From the NCBI RefSeq assembly GCF_030580955.1, contig NZ_JAUQON010000003.1, positions 248,001-312,000 on the forward strand: DNA of 64,000 nucleotides, in the 5' to 3' direction. Source of the stretch: Hymenobacter convexus. GTDB taxonomy: Bacteria; Bacteroidota; Bacteroidia; Cytophagales; Hymenobacteraceae. This document shows positions 1,445 through 60,325 of this stretch, piece by piece. Both the position numbers and the translations under genes were made by a program. Within the stretch, counting starts at the first letter, position 1. Each line of letters begins with the position of its first letter. The notes beneath the pieces were generated by a model that saw only the letters and a program-made list of their open reading frames with translations, was not told where the DNA came from and did no database searches.

Positions 1445-1450
1445 GAACAA

Positions 1451-1524
1451 GTAGCGCGGACTTTTAGTCCGCGTCCCCGCGCCGTTTTCGCTTTCTGGTG
1501 ACGCGGACTAAAAGTCCGCGCTAC
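1451..1524. repeat. GTAG-headed inverted repeat pair (BIME-like), 24-bp arms
   Basis: Perfect 24-bp inverted arms at 1451-1474 and 1501-1524 with a 26-bp spacer. Each arm starts with GTAG and is itself a hairpin (GCGGACT-TTT-AGTCCGC). This matches the design of REP elements recognised by RAYT transposases: a GTAG tetranucleotide followed by a hairpin, often as inverted pairs. No RAYT gene is in the window, so the assignment is structural only. Confidence 0.75.
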
Positions 1525-1533
1525 TATTCGCGC

Positions 1534-3973: not shown

Positions 3974-4020
3974 CCGCCTTGCCGTCATGCTTCGCTGCGC
4001 TCTGAATGACGGCAAGGCGG
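3974..4020. repeat. Single GAGCGCAGC-loop hairpin
   Basis: 15-bp perfect arms at 3974-3988 and 4006-4020. The 17-nt loop carries, on the minus strand, the constant core GAGCGCAGCGA. It lies in the 108-bp gap between the T9SS protein gene and GH32-like gene 1, inside the fructan operon. It belongs to the same family as the elements at 9923, 11416, 41208, 49957, 53364, 56157 and 61143. Confidence 0.75.
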
Positions 4021-4037
4021 CTTTGTTCACACAGGTC

Positions 4038-5234
4038 CTACAGCAGCACGACTTTGCGCACGGCCACGGTGCTGCCCAGTTGCACACGCAGCAGGTAGGT
4101 GCCGGCGGCCACGTCGGCGGTGATTAGGGTGGTGCTTTGCGGGCCGGCGGCTTTCAGGCCCTGCTCCAGCACGCGCACGGGGCGGCCCAGCAAGTCAGTC
4201 AATACCAAGCTGGCGGCGCCGGCGCGGGGTACCTGGTAGGCCACCGTCAGCCGGCCGGCGGCGGGGTTAGGGTACACCTGCAGGCCCAGGCCGGCTTCCT
4301 CGGCCGAGCGGGCGGCCAGCACGGTGGCGCCGCTGGCCGTCACCTGCAACGTGGCCGACTGCCGGCCGGGGATAGCCGTGAAATCGGGGCTGCGCTGCAG
4401 GCTGCCGTTGGCGTCGGCGCCGGGCGCGGCGGCGGTGTTTTCCGGGATGATGTCGCTGGAGAAAAAGTCGCCGTCGGCGTTGTTCTGCAGGCCGAATACC
4501 TGCACCGCGCCGCCAGCGGCGGGCAGGCCCAGGCTGGCCCGGCTCAGCGAAATTTCCAGGCCCGTGGCGTTGGCGCCGCCCGCCGGCGCACCGGGGTTGG
4601 TCGACAGCCGCGAACTGTTGCGGAAGGCCACCACGGCATTGGCAAACAGTGCGTACTGGCCCGTGGCCTGGGCGCTGCCGATGGTGGCCGCCGCGCCCGT
4701 GTTCACGTTCAGCCCGTTGACATTGAGCGGCTTGGTAACGGCCGTGGCCGGGCTACCCGCGCTGTACACCACGCCATCGACCTGCACCTGCGCGGCCACG
4801 CCATTGCCCTTCACCCCGATGCCGAAGTCGCCGGGCTGGTCGAGCTTAGCGCCCACCATTTTGAACGACGTGATGGGCGTGCTGGTCGCCGGCAGCGGCA
4901 GCGCGGTGCCCACGGGCACGGCCGCCGCGCCCGGCCGGGCCACGTAAATCTGCAGCGAGTTGCGAATCTGGCCCAGCGAGGCGGCGCTGCCATCGGTTTC
5001 GAGCGTGCCGGCCAGGAAGAGGTAGATGTTGTTGGCATCGGCCGCGGCGTAGAACGACAGCAACCCGGCGTCGCCGAAGCTGTGGCTGCGCGTGTAGCGG
5101 CCAATGAGCTGGTAGCCGCTGCTGCTGATTTCACTAGCGCTCAGCGTGCCATCTATGCTGATGGTCTGGGCATTGGAGGAAAAGACCGCCGTAGCGAGGG
5201 CGCCGACAAAAGCGAGGGTAAATGGTTTTTTCAT
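4038..5234 (-). CDS. T9SS-sorted surface protein of the fructan locus, possible glycan-binding
   Basis: 398 residues. ATG 5234 is chosen because it begins a clean signal peptide (MKKPFTLAFVGALATAVFSSNAQ). An N-terminal domain of ~230 residues opens with ISIDGTLSASEI and shows beta-rich, CBM9/DOMON-like character, but no fold is certain. The C-terminus is a type A T9SS domain: VYPNPAAGRLTVAYQVP, then LLGRPVRVLEQG, then VAAGTYLLRV and a final VRKVVLL. It sits between two paralogous GH32-like lipoprotein genes. No separate SusE/F-type binding protein is seen, so it could fill that role (inference). Confidence 0.75.
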   Translation of the reverse strand: MKKPFTLAFVGALATAVFSSNAQTISIDGTLSASEISSSGYQLIGRYTRSHSFGDAGLLSFYAAADANNIYLFLAGTLETDGSAASLGQIRNSLQIYVARPGAAAVPVGTALPLPATSTPITSFKMVGAKLDQPGDFGIGVKGNGVAAQVQVDGVVYSAGSPATAVTKPLNVNGLNVNTGAAATIGSAQATGQYALFANAVVAFRNSSRLSTNPGAPAGGANATGLEISLSRASLGLPAAGGAVQVFGLQNNADGDFFSSDIIPENTAAAPGADANGSLQRSPDFTAIPGRQSATLQVTASGATVLAARSAEEAGLGLQVYPNPAAGRLTVAYQVPRAGAASLVLTDLLGRPVRVLEQGLKAAGPQSTTLITADVAAGTYLLRVQLGSTVAVRKVVLL

Positions 5235-5358
5235 GGGAATTTGACGGGGGTTGAAAGTGGAAAAATCAGGCATGAGAGGGGCCAGCTTCGCCCGAAAACC
5301 AGGCAAAGAGCGGTAAATGCCCCGGGCGCGAGAGGGCGCCGTTGGAGTAGGAATAGAT

Positions 5359-5387
5359 GTAGGGGCGGGGCCTGCCCCCGCCCCTAC
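5359..5387. repeat. Single GTAG-headed hairpin
   Basis: 12-bp perfect arms (5359-5370, 5376-5387) with a 5-nt loop. It starts with GTAG and is very GC-rich. It sits in the gap between GH32-like gene 2 and the T9SS surface protein gene. It has the same architecture as one arm of the paired elements at 1451, 7057 and 8736. Confidence 0.65.
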
Positions 5388-5391
5388 TTTG

Positions 5392-7011
5392 CTAGGGCTT
5401 GGTGACCGTCAGGTTTTTGAAGGTTGCCGTGCTGTTGTCGGCGAAGATGCCCCAGGAGGTGCGGGGCGCTTTGTAGATGCGCACCGACAGCGCGGCCACG
5501 CCGTTGAGGTACACCACCACCACGGAATTTTCCTCCACGATGTCCACCATGTAATCGGTATTCGGCTGCATTGGGAAGGGCACATCGGCCACGGCGGAGG
5601 TGCCGGCATTGAGGCTGCTGCGGTTCAGGCGGTCGAAGCTGAAGCGGTTCTGACTGGGCACGAAGCGCAGGCTGTAGAACTGGTTGGTGCCGTCGCAGGC
5701 CCCCAGCATGAAGCCAAAATCCTTGGCCGCGCTGCTATACGACACGGTGGTGCTCAGCTTGAAGCGCGTGAGGTTGAGGGGCTTGAACAGCACGTTGGCC
5801 AGCGGGCCGGCGGCCGGGCCGGTCAGGATGTAGGTGCTCGAATCGGGCCGGGCAGCGCTGGCGGTGCGGCTCACGCGCTGCAGGGGCTCGGTCTGGGCTT
5901 CGAGGTAGGTTTTGAGGGCCGGCACCATACTCACGGTGAGGTCGCCGTTGGGCAGCTGGTTGAGCTGGTGCGTCACGAGGTTGCCGCCCCACCACCAGCT
6001 GCCGGCGTCGCTGTTGTTTTCGAGGCGGTTGACCCAGCCGATGAGGTAGTTTTTGCCGGTGGCGGTGTTGTTGAGCACGCGGGCGGCGTAGAGGCCGCTG
6101 CCGTCCACCCGCTCGTTGCCGGCGGGTGCGCTCCAGGGGCCGCCGGGCGCGGCGCTTTTGCGGTAGTAGAAGTGGCGGGTGCCGGTGTCGGAATACGTGA
6201 GGTAGTAAGTGCTGCCGATTTTAAACAGCTGCGGGCACTCCATCATGAAGTAGTTGCTCGAGCCGCCGTCATAGAGCACGCTCTGGTAGGTCCAGGTAAG
6301 CAAATCGGGGGAAGTGAGCTTCACGATGACGCCGCGCCAGATACCGGCCACGTTGCGGCGGGCCGACACCAGCATGGCGTACTGCCCGGTGGCATCGTCC
6401 TGGTATACAAAGGGGTCGCGAAAGTTGTCGTTCTCGTCGAAGCCCTGGCCGGTGGGCACGTAGAGCGTGGCGAAGCTGGTGCTCTTGGTGAAGCGCTGGG
6501 CCGGGCCGGGCGCGGTGGCCAGCATCACGCCCTCCTTACGGCGGCCGCAGTTGTCGGCGTTGGGGTTGTTGCCGGTGTAGAAGGCGTAGTAGGTGCCGTT
6601 GCGGGCAATTACGCTGCCCGTGCCGATGGCGCGGTCCTGCGCGCAGCTGCCCGCGCTGCTGGCCAGCAGCTCGCCGGCCGGCGCTTCGGTGTACTGCCGG
6701 AAGTCGCTGGTGGTGAAGGCGTACCAGGGATGGCGCTGGTTGCTCACGTCGCTCCACACGTCCTTCAGGTAGTAGAGGTACTGGGTGCCCGAGGCCGCGT
6801 CGAAGAAGGGCATCACGTCGCCCACGCCCGCGCCGTCGGCCACTTTGGGGAAGATGCCGTAGTCGTTGCGCTCGGCCGGGGGCGTGCACACCAGCTCCAC
6901 GCCGGGGTTGACGGCGGGCGGGTCCTGGGGTGTGGTGGGGTCGTTTTTCTTGCAGCCGGCCAGGCTAAGCGCCGCCAGCAGCACCCCGGCGAGTTGCCGA
7001 TAATGCCTCAT
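5392..7011 (-). CDS. GH32-like (clan GH-J) lipoprotein 2 of the fructan locus
   Basis: 539 residues from ATG 7011. Lipobox LSLAGC (Cys20). Candidate catalytic residues match its paralogue: Asp65 in VGDVMPFFD, Asp in FRDPFVY, Glu in MMECPQLF. The C-terminal beta-sandwich (FGFMLGACDGTNQFYSLRF onward) is almost collinear with that of 2292-3929, so the pair arose by duplication. It lacks the canonical WMNDPNG block of the classical GH32 at 7201-8724, so a different fructan linkage or an exo/endo split is possible. Hydrolysis of fructan is inferred from family and context. Confidence 0.8.
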   Translation of the reverse strand: MRHYRQLAGVLLAALSLAGCKKNDPTTPQDPPAVNPGVELVCTPPAERNDYGIFPKVADGAGVGDVMPFFDAASGTQYLYYLKDVWSDVSNQRHPWYAFTTSDFRQYTEAPAGELLASSAGSCAQDRAIGTGSVIARNGTYYAFYTGNNPNADNCGRRKEGVMLATAPGPAQRFTKSTSFATLYVPTGQGFDENDNFRDPFVYQDDATGQYAMLVSARRNVAGIWRGVIVKLTSPDLLTWTYQSVLYDGGSSNYFMMECPQLFKIGSTYYLTYSDTGTRHFYYRKSAAPGGPWSAPAGNERVDGSGLYAARVLNNTATGKNYLIGWVNRLENNSDAGSWWWGGNLVTHQLNQLPNGDLTVSMVPALKTYLEAQTEPLQRVSRTASAARPDSSTYILTGPAAGPLANVLFKPLNLTRFKLSTTVSYSSAAKDFGFMLGACDGTNQFYSLRFVPSQNRFSFDRLNRSSLNAGTSAVADVPFPMQPNTDYMVDIVEENSVVVVYLNGVAALSVRIYKAPRTSWGIFADNSTATFKNLTVTKP

Positions 7012-7056
7012 GGGAAGTAGGAAAGTTTGCTTGGATTAGCTCAGAAAGACAGAGTA

Positions 7057-7180
7057 GTAGAGACGCATACTTGCGTCTCGGCGGCCGCGCCGCTTGCATT
7101 CAACTGCAAGATGACGGCCAGCCGATGCGGACGGCGCGGTCCCGGCCGTTCAACGACGAGACGCAAGTATGCGTCTCTAC
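7057..7180. repeat. GTAG-headed inverted repeat pair, 24-bp arms
   Basis: Perfect 24-bp inverted arms (7057-7080, 7157-7180) around a 76-bp GC-rich spacer. Each arm starts with GTAG and folds by itself (GAGACGCA / TGCGTCTC, loop TACT). It occupies the gap between the GH32 gene and GH32-like gene 2. Confidence 0.75.
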
Positions 7181-7200
7181 CCGTTGCATGCAGCGCCGAA

Positions 7201-8724
7201 TCAATTAACCGGCTTGGCGTTGGGTCCGGCCAGCTTGCTGTAGGTCAGCTCCTGCACCGTCAGGCCGCCGGCCGATTCCAGCTTGAGCGTGGTGAAGGCT
7301 TTGGTCGGAAAAAACAGTTCGGTGGCCACGCTCAGCCCGCCATCGGCAAACAGCTCGACCGACGTCGCGTCCACATACAGCGCCACGTCGGCGGCCGGCG
7401 CGGTGGCCAGGCGCGGCGTGACGTGCCGGCCCGCAAACTTGGGGCTGAAAGCCGCGGGGCCGGCCTTGGTGCGGTCGATGTAGTACTGCTTCGCTGCGGC
7501 ATCGTAGCCGATGCGCAGCTCCTCACCGGCCGTGTTACCCAGCACCAGCGCGAAATCCTTCAGCTGTGCGGTGCTCATTTTCAGCGCGTACCGGTCGCCG
7601 CCGAAGTTGAGCTTGGTGCTCAGGTCCTGGGCGGTGGCGGTGGCTCTCACATCTTTCAGCGTGGTGGCGGGCTGGGCTATTTTGGCCACCTCCTTCACCG
7701 GCTGCGAGGTGAGGTAGATTTCCGAGCCCACCTGGCGCAGGCCCAGCTCGCGGGGCAGCGTCATGGCGTTGCGCCAGGGCGAGGTGGGCACCTGGTTGGC
7801 GTAATCCCAGTTGCTCATCCAGCCCAGAAAAATCCGGCGGGCTCCCGTGTTGGCCCAGGTCACGCCGGCGTAGTCGTCGGGGCCGTAGTCGGCCCACTTG
7901 GTCTTGTCGTTCAGGGGCGTGAATTTGTGTCCGTCGAAGCTGCCGATGAAGTACTGGGTGCCCGAGCCGCTGTTGGGGCCGCCGGGGTTCAGGTTCACGA
8001 TGAGCACCCAGTGGGTTTTGCCGTTCAGCGTGAGCGGGAACAAATCGGGGCACTCCCACACGCCGCCGTGGGCGCCCAGCTTCTCGCCAAACTCGCTTTC
8101 TTTGGTCCAGCTTTTCAGGTTGGGCGAGGAGTAGAAGGTGATGCGGTCCTTGGTGGCCAGCGTCATTATCCACTTCTTGGCCACCTCGTTCCAGCTCACT
8201 TTCGGGTCGCGGAAATCCTGGATGCCGGGGTTGGGCAGCACGGGGTTGCCCGCGTATTTTGTCCAGGTTTTGCCGGCGTCGAGGCTGTAGGCCAGGCTTT
8301 GGTACTGATGCTTGTTGGTTTTCTTTTTCTCCTCGGGGTCGTTGTGGTGGGTGAAAATAGCCACCATCGCATTCTTCCCGAAGCCGGCTGTATTATTGGC
8401 ATCAATCACCGCCGAACCCGAGAAAATCCAGCCCAGCTTATCCGGAAAAAGCGCGATGGCTTGCTCCTTCCAACTGGTTAAATCGGTGCTCGTGGCGTGG
8501 CCCCAGTGCATGGGGCCCCAGGTCATGCCATCGGGATAGTACTGGAAAAACAGGTGGTAGGTGCCCTGGTAATACACCATGCCATTGGGGTCGTTCATCC
8601 AGTGCGCGGCGGGCGAAAAGTGGTAGCCGGGCCGGTACTGCGGCGTGGCCGGCGGCACGGGCGCCTGCTGCGCGTAGGCGAGCAGATTGAGGCTAAAAAG
8701 GGCCGGGAGAAAAAGGCGTTTCAT
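7201..8724 (-). CDS. GH32 fructanase (levanase/inulinase type), secreted
   Basis: 507 residues from ATG 8724. The N-terminal signal peptide ends near AYAQQ. All three canonical GH32 blocks are present: WMNDPNG (Asp45, nucleophile), FRDPKV (stabilising Asp) and WECPDLF (Glu acid/base). The C-terminal ~140 residues are the GH32 beta-sandwich (ALYVDATSVELFADGG resembles its core). Length is normal for exo-acting bacterial fructanases. It releases fructose from beta-fructan, probably in the periplasm or at the cell surface; whether levan or inulin is preferred cannot be told from sequence. Confidence 0.92.
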   Translation of the reverse strand: MKRLFLPALFSLNLLAYAQQAPVPPATPQYRPGYHFSPAAHWMNDPNGMVYYQGTYHLFFQYYPDGMTWGPMHWGHATSTDLTSWKEQAIALFPDKLGWIFSGSAVIDANNTAGFGKNAMVAIFTHHNDPEEKKKTNKHQYQSLAYSLDAGKTWTKYAGNPVLPNPGIQDFRDPKVSWNEVAKKWIMTLATKDRITFYSSPNLKSWTKESEFGEKLGAHGGVWECPDLFPLTLNGKTHWVLIVNLNPGGPNSGSGTQYFIGSFDGHKFTPLNDKTKWADYGPDDYAGVTWANTGARRIFLGWMSNWDYANQVPTSPWRNAMTLPRELGLRQVGSEIYLTSQPVKEVAKIAQPATTLKDVRATATAQDLSTKLNFGGDRYALKMSTAQLKDFALVLGNTAGEELRIGYDAAAKQYYIDRTKAGPAAFSPKFAGRHVTPRLATAPAADVALYVDATSVELFADGGLSVATELFFPTKAFTTLKLESAGGLTVQELTYSKLAGPNAKPVN

Positions 8725-8735
8725 ACGGGTGGGAT

Positions 8736-8830
8736 GTAGCGTGGACTCTGCGAGTCCGCGCAGGCGTGGGTTGGTAGCAGTTCGTTCAAGGCGCGTCGTT
8801 CGGTGCGCGGACTCGCAGAGTCCACGCTAC
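8736..8830. repeat. GTAG-headed inverted repeat pair, 25-bp arms
   Basis: Perfect 25-bp arms (8736-8760, 8806-8830) with a 45-bp spacer. Each arm starts with GTAG and contains its own near-palindrome (GTGGACTC-TGC-GAGTCCGC, one G-T pair). It fills almost the whole gap between the fructokinase and GH32 genes, ending 4 bp before the fructokinase stop codon. Confidence 0.75.
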
Positions 8831-8834
8831 AGGC

Positions 8835-9734
8835 TTACGCCACGGCGGCCGTCATCAGCGCCCGCACATCAGCCTCCTCGAAGGCCGGCGTGGCACCCTG
8901 GTGCGTGGCCACCAGCGCCCCGGCGGCGCAGGCGAAGCGCAGCGCCGCCTCGGGCGCGTGGCCGGTGAGCCAGCAGCGGAGCAGCGCGGCCAGGAAGGCA
9001 TCGCCGCTGCCGATGGTGTCCTGCACCTGCACGGGCACGCCGGGCGTGCGGTAGAGCTGGTTGTTGGCCCAGAGCATGGCGCCGTCGGCGCCGCAGGTCA
9101 CGCACACCACTTGCAGGTCGAAGCGGGTGGCCAGCCACTGCATGGCGGCGGCATCGTCGGTTTCGGCCCCGAACCAGGCCATGATTTCGGCCAGCTCGTG
9201 GTGGTTCATTTTCACCATGTTGGCTTTGCCCAGCAGGTACTTCACCACCTCGCGGGTGTAGTGCGGCGGGCGCATGTTCACGTCAAACACCTTGAATTTG
9301 GCGGTTTCGAGCAGGCGGTACAGCGTTTCGCGGGTGCCGGCCTGCCGGGCGGCCAGGCTGCCGAACACGAAGGCATCGGCAGTGGCCACGGCGGCTTCCA
9401 CATCGGCGTCGAAGTGGATGTAGTCCCAGGCCACGGGCTGCACTATCTTGTAGGTCACCTCGTTGGCGTCGTCCACGTTGGCCTTCACCACGCCGGTGAG
9501 GTGAGTTTTGCCCTGCTGGATGAGGCCGGTATCCACACCTTTCGACGCCACGAAATCGACCAGCTCGGTGCCCAGCTCGTCGTCGCCCACGCGGCTGATG
9601 AAGCGCACGGGCAAACCCAGCTGGTGCAGGTGCACGGCCACGTTGAAGGGCGCGCCGCCCGGCTGCTTGCCGGTGGGCAGGATGTCCCAGAGAATTTCGC
9701 CGAAGCAGGCAATGGTGGGCAGGGAAGTAGTCAT
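8835..9734 (-). CDS. PfkB-family fructokinase
   Basis: 299 residues from ATG 9734; an upstream in-frame extension is not protein-like. N-terminal ACFGEILWDILP and GGAPFNVAVHL are typical of PfkB fructokinases. The C-terminal signature DTIGSGDAFLAALL carries the anion hole (G-S-G) and catalytic Asp. The enzyme phosphorylates fructose with ATP in the cytoplasm to give fructose 6-phosphate. Its place between the sugar symporter and the GH32 fructanase supports fructose as substrate. Confidence 0.9.
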   Translation of the reverse strand: MTTSLPTIACFGEILWDILPTGKQPGGAPFNVAVHLHQLGLPVRFISRVGDDELGTELVDFVASKGVDTGLIQQGKTHLTGVVKANVDDANEVTYKIVQPVAWDYIHFDADVEAAVATADAFVFGSLAARQAGTRETLYRLLETAKFKVFDVNMRPPHYTREVVKYLLGKANMVKMNHHELAEIMAWFGAETDDAAAMQWLATRFDLQVVCVTCGADGAMLWANNQLYRTPGVPVQVQDTIGSGDAFLAALLRCWLTGHAPEAALRFACAAGALVATHQGATPAFEEADVRALMTAAVA

Positions 9735-9922
9735 GGACGGGGAAGGATTAGGGGCAAGGAATAATTCCGGTAGCGGCTGGCCGAACGGGGCCTTCAAAGG
9801 CGGCGGGCGCTACCCACCACAGCGCGCAGGCCGCCGGGCCCGCAAGTTCGGCCAGCCAACAGCCAGTTGGATTTGGGTTTGGTTTTGGTCTAATGTAGAA
9901 CGGTCATGTTTACAAAACAGAA

Positions 9923-10013
9923 CGTCATGCTGAGCGCAGTCGAAGCATCTCTACCGCAGTAGTAATTGATTGTGTTGCGCGGTAGAGATGCTTCGACTGC
10001 GCTCAGCATGACG
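9923..10013. repeat. Inverted pair of GAGCGCAGC-loop hairpins, 35-bp arms
   Basis: Perfect 35-bp arms (9923-9957, 9979-10013) with a 21-nt centre. Each arm contains GTCATGCT-GAGCGCAGTCGA-AGCAT, a small hairpin with the family core loop. The centre shares a CGCAGTA-like and AT-rich character with those at 11416 and 53364. It lies between the sugar symporter and fructokinase genes. Confidence 0.8.
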
Positions 10014-10031
10014 GGCTGGGTTGATGTTCAA

Positions 10032-11348
10032 TCAATGCAGCACCAGCACCTTATCGGCTTCTTCCAGCGTTTTGCCTTTGGTTTCGGGCATCAGCTTCCA
10101 CACGTAGAGCAGCTGCAGCACCATCATGCCGCAGAAGAAGGCGAAGGTGTTGCCGCCGCCCAGCGCCTCGGTCAGCTTGGGGAAAATGAAGGTGATAACG
10201 GCCGCCAGCACCCAGTGCGTGCTCGAACCCAGCGCCTGCCCCTTGGCCCGCACCGCCGAGGGAAAAATCTCGGAAATAAATACCCAGATAACCGCGCCCT
10301 GCGAGAAAGCGAAGAAGGCAATGTAGCCGAACAGCAGCACCGGCACCGCCTCAAACTGCTGCGTGTAGAAGGCCCGCGCCACCAGCCCCAGCGTGAGAAT
10401 CAGCCCCACGGAGCCCACCAGCATCAGCCGGCGCCGGCCGAACCGGTCGATGATGTTCACGGCCAGCAGCGTGAAGCAGAAGTTCACCAGTCCAATGCCA
10501 GCCGACGACAGCAGCGCCGCGCTTTGGCCCCGCCCGGTCATCTCGAAAATGCGCGGCGCGTAGTAGATGATGGCGTTGATGCCCGCCAGCTGGTTGAAGG
10601 CGGCGAAGAGGATGGCCAGCAGCACCGGCGGCCGGTACTGCGGCGCCCACAGCGACTCGCCCGGGCCCTGCTCGGCCGCATTAGCCACCAGAATGGTGCT
10701 GATGTTCTCATCAGCCGTTGCCGGGTCGATGCGCTCGAACACGGCGCGGGCGTCCTCGGTGCGGCCGTGGCGCAGCAGCCAGCGCGGGCTCTCCGGGATG
10801 CGGAACAACAAGAGAAAGAAGGCAATGGCTGGCACCGCCTGCACGCCCAGCATCCAGCGCCAGGCGTCGGGGCCAATGTCGCGCAGCAGGAAATTGCTCA
10901 GGTAAGCCAGCAGGATGCCGAACACCACGTTGAACTGGAACATGCCCACCATGCGGCCCCGCGAGGCCGGCGGCGACACCTCCGAGATGTAGAGCGGCGC
11001 TGTAACCGACGAAGCCCCCACCCCCAGCCCGCCCAAAAAGCGGAACACCATAAACGGCACCCAGCTCGGCGACAAGGCCGCGCCCACCGCCGACACGAGG
11101 TAGAGCACCGCAATCCAGACCAGGGTGCCGCGCCGCCCCAGGGCATCGCTCGGCACGCTGCCGAAGATGGCGCCCAGCACGGTGCCAATCAGGGCGATGG
11201 ACATGGTGAGGCCGTGCTCGTAGGCGCTCAGGCCCCACAGCTTCTGAATGGACTCTTCGGCCCCGGAAATCACGGCCGTGTCGAAGCCGAACAGCAGGCC
11301 GCCCAGCGCCACCACTATCGACCAGAAGAATACGTTGCGGTTTTTCAC
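10032..11348 (-). CDS. MFS sugar porter, probably fructose/H+ symporter
   Basis: 438 residues if started at GTG 11348 (then KNRNVFFWSIVVALGG), the usual beginning for this family; the frame continues to a GTG at 11414 close to the repeat. Sugar-porter marks: FGFDTAVISG in helix 1, DALGRRG in loop 2-3, PESPRWL after helix 6, RFGRRRLM in loop 8-9, PETKGK at the C-terminus. Twelve helices are expected in the inner membrane. Genomic position between susD and fructokinase points to fructose uptake (inference); the family also moves glucose, galactose or xylose. Confidence 0.87.
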   Translation of the reverse strand: MKNRNVFFWSIVVALGGLLFGFDTAVISGAEESIQKLWGLSAYEHGLTMSIALIGTVLGAIFGSVPSDALGRRGTLVWIAVLYLVSAVGAALSPSWVPFMVFRFLGGLGVGASSVTAPLYISEVSPPASRGRMVGMFQFNVVFGILLAYLSNFLLRDIGPDAWRWMLGVQAVPAIAFFLLLFRIPESPRWLLRHGRTEDARAVFERIDPATADENISTILVANAAEQGPGESLWAPQYRPPVLLAILFAAFNQLAGINAIIYYAPRIFEMTGRGQSAALLSSAGIGLVNFCFTLLAVNIIDRFGRRRLMLVGSVGLILTLGLVARAFYTQQFEAVPVLLFGYIAFFAFSQGAVIWVFISEIFPSAVRAKGQALGSSTHWVLAAVITFIFPKLTEALGGGNTFAFFCGMMVLQLLYVWKLMPETKGKTLEEADKVLVLH

Positions 11349-11415
11349 AAGCGGATGTTTTTGAGGGTAGAACGATTGGTTGTTAACGAAATATTTTGGA
11401 GTCGGTGTCGTCACT

Positions 11416-11540
11416 GAACGTCATGCTGAGCGTAGCGCAGCGGAGTCGAAGCATCTCGCTCGGGGCAGTAATCAAATTCGTTGAACGATTGGATTAGTGG
11501 CGGCACGCGAGATGCTTCGGCTGCGCTCAGCATGACGTTC
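11416..11540. repeat. Inverted pair of GAGCGCAGC-loop hairpins, one arm with 10-bp insertion
   Basis: Arms at 11416-11458 and 11508-11540. The right arm, reverse-complemented, reads GAACGTCATGCTGAGCGCAG and continues; the left arm is the same except for a 10-bp expansion in the loop (GTAGCGCAGCGGAG in place of CAGC). The central 49 nt share TTGGATTA-GTGGCG with the element at 53364. It lies between susD and the symporter gene. Confidence 0.75.
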
Positions 11541-41207: not shown

Positions 41208-41312
41208 TGTCATCCTGAGCGCAGCGAAGGACCTTATCACGCGCGCATCAATTAAGTTACTAACCCAACGAGTACCAGCGTGATAAGGTCCTTCGCTGCG
41301 CTCAGGATGACA
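41208..41312. repeat. Inverted pair of GAGCGCAGC-loop hairpins between sdhA and sdhB
   Basis: Perfect 35-bp arms (41208-41242, 41278-41312), centre 35 nt. Each arm is a hairpin TCCT-GAGCGCAGCGA-AGGA. It begins 6 bp after the sdhA stop and ends 17 bp before sdhB, inside an operon. In translation it gives the spurious CHPERSEGP / RSFAALRMT peptides seen in many annotations of this phylum. Confidence 0.85.
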
Positions 41313-49956: not shown

Positions 49957-50043
49957 TGTCATCCTGAGCGCAGCGAAGGACCTTATCCCGGCAGAACCAG
50001 TTGTTATAACGTGAGAAGGTCCTTCGCTGCGCTCAGGATGACA
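49957..50043. repeat. Inverted pair of GAGCGCAGC-loop hairpins, 31-bp arms
   Basis: Arms 49957-49987 and 50013-50043 with one mismatch. The stem/loop TCCT-GAGCGCAGCGA-AGGA is the same sub-family as at 41208. It sits between two convergent genes. Confidence 0.8.
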
Positions 50044-56140: not shown

Positions 56141-56156
56141 GGCGCTCGGGTTGAGT

Positions 56157-56196
56157 AAGAACGTCATGTCGAGCGCAGCCGAGACATGACGTTCTT
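56157..56196. repeat. Single GAGCGCAGC-loop hairpin, 14-bp stem
   Basis: Perfect arms 56157-56170 and 56183-56196 with the 12-nt loop GAGCGCAGCCGA. Identical loop to that at 61155-61166 but with a different stem, so the stem changes are compensated on both sides. Confidence 0.8.
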
Positions 56197-56221
56197 ACTG
56201 CTTTTCCTCCGGCAAAATGCA

Positions 56222-58084: not shown

Positions 58085-58100
58085 GCCCACCAATTCAAGA

Positions 58101-58144
58101 AACTAAAAAGGCCGGCTTCTGATTGAAGCCGGCCTTTTTAGTTT
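58101..58144. terminator. Bidirectional terminator between M2 and FAS1 genes
   Basis: Perfect 19-bp stem (58101-58119, 58126-58144) of AACTAAAAAGGCCGGCTTC and its complement, loop 6 nt. T-runs occur on both strands. Confidence 0.9.
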
Positions 58145-58168
58145 CGCTGTGATAAGGCTTTGCAGCCA

Positions 58169-60287: not shown

Positions 60288-60325
60288 GCATAAAAAAGCC
60301 GGCTTCGGGGCCGGCTTTTTTATGC
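60288..60325. terminator. Bidirectional terminator between outer-membrane and pirin genes
   Basis: Perfect 16-bp stem (60288-60303, 60310-60325), GCATAAAAAAGCCGGC and complement, loop 6 nt, with T-runs on both sides. Confidence 0.9.

Follow-up and report, generated by a model that had tools for sequence, protein, structure and literature searches.

We propose that the six hairpins lying between the genes of a fructan-type polysaccharide utilization locus (PUL) of Hymenobacter convexus are very probably non-autonomous mobile palindromes of the repetitive extragenic palindromic (REP) or REPIN type, tagged with either GTAG or CGTC, and that their unbroken series along the operon is mostly a by-product of the abundance of such elements in this genome. 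The PUL is encoded on the minus strand of the 64,000-nucleotide stretch analysed here (contig NZ_JAUQON010000003.1, positions 248,001 to 312,000; hereafter the window), in a genome of 5.98 Mb with a GC content of 62%. A Pfam scan identifies three GH32 genes, a PfkB gene, a sugar transporter gene of the major facilitator superfamily (MFS), susD and a hybrid sensor gene; susC, which lay outside that scan, and a gene for a Por-tailed protein complete the locus as described here. An earlier note on this DNA had pointed out the hairpins and had read their regular placement as a sign that they set the relative expression or stability of segments of one long mRNA. Our observations establish what the elements are, how abundant they are, how they turn over, where they are placed and that genes for REP-associated tyrosine transposases (RAYTs) are flanked by them. 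A dedicated expression-setting role is not supported, and what the earlier note observed, correctly, is best described as REP colonisation that is dense but otherwise ordinary.

An inverted repeat is present in every one of the six gaps that follow susD, as the earlier note had reported, and none of the six lies inside a called gene, the gene calls being those of a codon-model script written for this analysis (Table 1). The gaps that it had given as free of hairpins, the 21 bp between susC and susD and the gap between the sensor gene and susC, are indeed empty in this genome. Its description of the hairpins as long holds for four of them, those at 5359-5387 and 3974-4020 being short single hairpins, and its two unrelated families stand as two superfamilies but not as two sequence families, of which there are more, the GTAG elements alone comprising three subfamilies. 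When folded as RNA on the transcribed strand, each of the six hairpins beats all 200 shuffles, with z scores from -4.7 to -17.1.

Table 1. Palindromic elements in and beside the fructan operon; coordinates are those of the window.
Element	Location	Coordinates	Strand	Start relative to upstream stop codon	Arms or stem
CGTC-tagged head-to-head REP dimer	susD / sugar MFS gap	11416-11540	-	palindrome starts 22 nt past susD stop	two 21-nt segments, 95% and 90% match; one arm with insert
CGTC-tagged REP dimer	MFS / PfkB gap	9913-10023	-	core starts 18 nt past MFS stop	45-nt arms, 91%; inner core 9923-10013, 35 nt perfect
GTAG-tagged REP dimer, CGTGGACTC subfamily	PfkB / GH32 gap	8735-8831	-	3 nt past PfkB stop	28 nt perfect
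GTAG-tagged REP dimer, AGACGC subfamily	GH32 / GH32 gap	7057-7180	-	20 nt past upstream stop	24 nt perfect
Single GTAG-tagged REP hairpin, GGGGCGGGG subfamily	GH32 / Por-tailed gene gap	5359-5387	-	4 nt past stop	12 bp stem, 29 nt in total
Short CGTC-type single hairpin	Por-tailed gene / last GH32 gap	3974-4020	-	17 nt past stop	15 bp stem, 47 nt in total
GTAG-tagged REP dimer, CGCGGACT subfamily	just outside the operon	1450-1525	+		

Judged by sequence, the six hairpins are REP/REPIN-type palindromes of two described superfamilies, three being GTAG-tagged and three CGTC-tagged, and the likening of them to REP elements in the earlier note was right in kind. GTAG stands directly 5′ of the stem-loop, unpaired within each unit, at 8735-8831, 7057-7180 and 1450-1525, and in the single hairpin at 5359-5387 it pairs with CTAC at the opposite foot. 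Three of these four GTAG elements in and beside the operon are head-to-head dimers with GTAG outermost. In the cited sections of the literature on GTAG REPs, BIMEs (bacterial interspersed mosaic elements) and REPINs, the elements likewise carry GTAG by a short stem-loop, form head-to-head dimers and are intergenic; they flank a RAYT gene with the same repeats, prefer unidirectional and convergent gaps, and often supply a stop codon with their TAG (PMC3733652, PMC2817692, PMC6006769). The host differs, as neither PMC3733652 nor PMC6006769 mentions Hymenobacter in its main text, and further differences are that several GTAG subfamilies occur here together with CGTC elements and that filled and empty orthologous stops can be compared. 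RAYT-like subclasses with REP-like flanks are placed in Bacteroidetes in the relevant part of PMC6006769.

The elements of the second superfamily carry a CGTC or TGTC tag followed by AT, present in 9923-10013, 11416-11540 and 3974-4020, and resemble the CGTC REPs that the corresponding sections of PMC3733652 describe as having a CGTC or TGTC tag, a stem beginning with AT, head-to-head dimers, no associated transposase and an intergenic position near 3′ ends, with Bacteroidetes already among the phyla concerned. Unlike the published repeats, the unit stem here is interrupted (CGTC-ATGCT...AGCAT pairs over 5 bp before mismatches set in, judged by eye from the arms), the unit runs on as CTC or CTT with no CCA-like tail, and many copies include AGAA...TTCT outside the tag. 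A CCA-like tail holds for most CGTC REP units in that part of PMC3733652 and is hence not taken as defining. The CGTC core GTCATGCTGAGC has 629 copies in the genome, 311 on the plus and 318 on the minus strand, against 4 for the reversed control pattern, and is found in all 61 of the genus genomes searched; its variant GTCATGCAGAGC is found in 54 of the 61. These T and A variants coexist at 629 and 186 copies in this genome (G000), 557 and 329 in the related genome G024, and 352 and 243 in a further relative, G048, so that no simple sweep has taken place, and the replacement of CGTC variants by a species-specific 'master' was rejected.

Furthermore, the commonest 14-mers in 464 kb of this genome build mainly the CGTC unit, its TGTC variant and the GTAG unit, the rest being shorter fragments, and 101 of the 113 inverted repeats in the same sequence lie within gaps. 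In 1.246 Mb of genus sequence, 66 GTAG hairpins fall outside genes and 24 inside called genes under a loose rule that admits chance hits. The element rules are regular expressions, which miss degenerate copies such as those at L227-L229. No Rfam match at the gathering score was found between positions 2000 and 20000 of the window, and no literature on REP elements in Hymenobacter was found in the limited library searched.

The CGTC-type element at 3974-4020 looks like a CGTC dimer minus its inner part, and G024 holds a full dimer in the same gap. Two hairpins in the window, at 56154-56199 and 3974-4020, are short and perfect, have a palindrome that extends into the flanks, and are like CGTC dimers cut to one unit, as if by fold-back template switching. 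Comparison of 7057-7180 with the orthologous gap in locus L053 reveals the same flanks and a similar loop, with both arm tips changed together, which suggests homogenisation of one arm by the other.

Placement in the 1.246 Mb sample, in which syntenic and orthologous loci were counted without deduplication, follows the same pattern as in the operon. The 71 CGTC elements start a median of 25 nt past the stop codon; 64 do so within 45 nt, among them 42 at 16-33 nt and 12 within 15 nt. GTAG elements start a median of 4 nt past the stop, and 15 of the 43 located beside a gene end have a TAG that doubles as the stop codon.

The regularity of the operon series is best judged against the background in this genome, for which we used a sample of 564 kb with 463 genes (about 9% of the genome, the operon itself included). 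A hairpin is present in 85 of 174 co-directional gaps of at least 100 bp, in 28 of 41 convergent gaps of at least 60 bp and in 11 of 56 divergent gaps of at least 60 bp, but in none of the 108 co-directional gaps shorter than 60 bp. The operon, with six, is the longest occupied run in the sample; a run of six or more nevertheless arises in 136 of 1000 permutations (13.6%) when occupancy is shuffled within size classes of this sample alone. Occupancy of about half of the large co-directional gaps therefore accounts for the unbroken series, six in a row lying within expectation, and the proposal in the earlier note that regular placement points to the setting of expression or stability finds no support. 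The hairpin-free gap between susC and susD is smaller than any occupied co-directional gap in the sample, and the gap between the sensor gene and susC would be expected to contain the susC promoter.

Comparison with relatives, which the earlier note had put forward as a check, leads to the same result. The operon genes are 81-99% identical in G024 and 72-98% identical in G048, where the last GH32 gene has no hit. The PfkB-GH32 gap holds the same dimer family in all three genomes, and each of the susD-MFS and MFS-PfkB gaps has a CGTC dimer whose arms have changed. The GH32-GH32 gap carries AGACGC elements in two of the three and a different GTAG family in G048, and the gap between GH32 and the Por-tailed gene carries a GTAG element here, an unrelated palindrome in G024 and nothing in G048. 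The susC-susD gap, empty here, is filled by an inverted repeat in G024 and likewise in G048. Across 52 gaps syntenic with G024, 15 are occupied in both genomes, 8 in G024 only, 4 in this genome only and 25 in neither, and several of those occupied in both carry different families. Occupancy by any family is retained at 6/6 gaps in the operon and 9/13 in the rest of the syntenic stretch, a difference that is not significant (Fisher p = 0.18). In four relatives at 86-89% (L055-L058) the three core gaps are all empty. In a wider survey of Hymenobacter, in which 48 of 80 retained loci were scored and a few genomes appear twice, at least half of the scorable orthologous gaps are free of hairpins (susD-MFS 13/26, MFS-PfkB 26/46, PfkB-GH32 19/26), and those that are occupied hold CGTC, GTAG or other palindromes.

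Several further observations concern these gaps and their counterparts. The susC-susD gap of L053 (6963-7062) and of L054 has an inverted repeat of the TTAGTAGTGAGT... type where the window has 21 unrelated bases. More kinds of palindrome (CTCCCCTCC..., GGTGAGATGGTGA... and GTTAG-rich), unlike the GTAG and CGTC elements by eye, occur in the operon gaps of L285, L286, L299, L304, L322, L323 and L325. TGTC-tagged REP dimers (TGTCATCCTGAGCGCAGCGAAGGACC) stand at 41208-41312 and 49957-50043 of the window, and the orthologous gaps in G024 have no hairpin above score, a sign of gain or loss.

For the GTAG elements the genus also provides candidate transposases. Y1_Tnp matches occur in 43 of the 61 genus genomes, and two are found in this genome. 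The RAYT of this genome, L001, scores 82.2 bits against NCBIfam REP_Tyr_transpos (cut-off 80) and has GTAG hairpins on both sides, of the same CGCGGACT subfamily as the element just outside the operon. We examined 72 Y1 loci, of which 61 could be parsed and 11 could not, further Y1_Tnp matches lying outside this sample. Among the 61 parsed open reading frames (ORFs), 43 have an N/S-HxH motif and 18 have DHxH; GTAG hairpins flank the former on both sides in 18/43 and on one side in 8/43, and the latter on both sides in 2/18. Subfamilies of the operon hairpins recur at such genes, with varying loop bases: CGTGGACTC flanks the RAYT genes L161 (G024) and L159 (G020), GGGGCGGGG flanks L124, L139 and L146, and CGCGGACT flanks L127, L134, L138 and L151 in addition to L001. 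The second match in this genome, the RAYT-like ORF 1441-1995 of L002, scores 55 against the cut-off of 80, and no REP was found on either side of it.

Several findings weigh against our reading of the hairpins as mobile REP elements. By the regular-expression rule, 17 of the 43 N/S-HxH RAYT-like ORFs have no GTAG hairpin, and the AGACGC subfamily was found beside no RAYT among the 61 parsed Y1 loci. The CGTC unit is not a clean fit to the published stem of 8-9 bp with its loop of 4-5 nt; it lies near only one of the 61 parsed Y1 loci, on one side, and has no associated Y1 gene, and none of the 16 genes out of 820 that are flanked by CGTC units on both sides is transposase-like, as judged from the first 70 residues. 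Lacking an associated transposase, CGTC units can be called mobile from their distribution only. A pattern search of the 564 kb yields 14 CGTC dimers, which differ in their loops and have an arm agreement of 0.948 within a dimer and 0.849 between dimers, contrary to what recent copying of whole dimers predicts. Finally, the MFS gene has CGTC elements on both sides in G000, G024, G048 and G019, an arrangement that would also fit selective retention.

The mechanism that most reasonably accommodates these observations would have GTAG elements copied by single-strand transposition through a RAYT of the HUH/Y1 type, and CGTC elements moved by some enzyme. Insertions would survive in co-directional and convergent gaps shortly past a stop codon, where they do least harm, and purifying selection would purge them from promoter gaps and from coupled gaps. 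Hairpins that are transcribed could, as a side effect, delay 3′-to-5′ degradation of the mRNA upstream of them.

The most substantial rival to this account is that the hairpins were selected as a set that serves dedicated post-transcriptional tuning, adjusting how stable or how strongly expressed segments of the fructan mRNA are. In its favour, the RNA folds of all six have very high stability and, in the direction of transcription, start 3-22 nt past stop codons; G000, G024 and G048 alike have an element in each of the first four gaps; and the crowding of CGTC starts at 16-33 nt in the genus sample could reflect clearing of the terminating ribosome. The same placement is, however, found genome-wide, at least half of the scorable Hymenobacter orthologous gaps are free of hairpins, relatives (the closest among them) swap families in the same gap, and retention in the operon does not significantly exceed the background, so that we consider a dedicated set unlikely; the run test and the comparison with relatives were the grounds for discarding an operon code as the main explanation.

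A function as intrinsic terminators or attenuators between genes is less likely still, and indeed very improbable. Strong GC-rich stems located in gaps would suit such a role, and one of the six could perform it: past the core at 9923-10013 the transcribed strand reads TTCTGTTTTG, where 6 of 8 bases are T. In none of the other five are more than 4 of the 8 bases past the stem T, so that they lack a U-rich tail, and the sequences belong to dispersed repeat families. A terminator scan lists none of the six, its loops being confined to 3-8 nt, which leaves it blind to long dimers. As for palindromes arising by chance or composition in GC-rich spacer DNA, to which a GC content of 62% might seem conducive, the hairpin score is reached by a single one of 331 shuffled gaps, codon-shuffled sequence yields 6 inverted repeats against 95 in the real sequence, and membership of dispersed families is not what chance provides; we regard this explanation as already refuted and its probability as negligible.

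The position of GTAG elements at stop codons raises the question of where the tag originates. We tentatively suggest, on a balance that falls slightly short of even, that RAYT-type GTAG elements of Hymenobacter may insert directly 3′ of a GTAG already present in the target, with host TAG stops preceded by G as landing sites, in which case the tetranucleotide would derive from the target, either instead of the element or alongside it. For four genes chosen because they have an element at the stop in this genome, 30 orthologs each were compared, and 119 of the 120 have their stop within two codons of that of the query. GTAG precedes each of the 13 strict hairpins at these stops, although one (L200) may be a terminator. 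Of the 107 orthologs with no hairpin at the stop, 33 have a GTAG ending, against a background of 137/883; once six orthologs with degenerate or half elements are removed by eye, two with an element after ATAG being kept, the count is 27 of 101. In the gene set, 9 of the 136 stops with a GTAG ending have a hairpin directly after them, compared with 10 of the 744 that end otherwise (p = 0.0009); because the four genes were preselected and orthologs are not independent, p-values here are only indicative. At the stop of a MoxR-type gene, different GTAG families occur by species (CGCGGACT and GGGCGCC), with CGTGGACTC after ATAG. Against insertion at a pre-existing GTAG, in two species the element of the PfkB gap comes after a TAA stop, and in a third it provides the TAG, which indicates that later takeover of the tag as stop also happens. 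Also against it, the relevant part of PMC8266576 treats GTAG as a guide sequence belonging to the element and places cleavage at CT or CA. That GTAG termini often supply the stop codon is noted in PMC3733652, in the cited part of which an explanation by insertion target is absent. Such insertion, if true, would explain both the GTAG elements on stop codons and their filling of operon gaps.

In E. coli, the REP elements of malEFG have a reported effect on mRNA. The hairpins described here share with them a strong hairpin past the stop codon within an operon; the effect on mRNA belongs to malEFG, whereas the present series is known from sequence and explained by genome-wide abundance. Regular placement of hairpins in REP-rich genomes should thus not be equated with function, and the background rate needs to be measured first. 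This work also documents both REP superfamilies, together with RAYT genes that have matching flanking repeats, in a well-sequenced genus of Bacteroidota; since many Hymenobacter species are sequenced, the choice of targets by REP elements is testable through filled and empty orthologous stop codons. It likewise restates a question that Di Nocera et al. posed in the sections of PMC3733652 cited above, namely which factor moves CGTC elements. Elsewhere in the window, two inverted repeats unlike REPs, at 58099-58145 and 60288-60325, lie in convergent gaps and resemble terminators, with arms rich in T; the second is also scored in G024.

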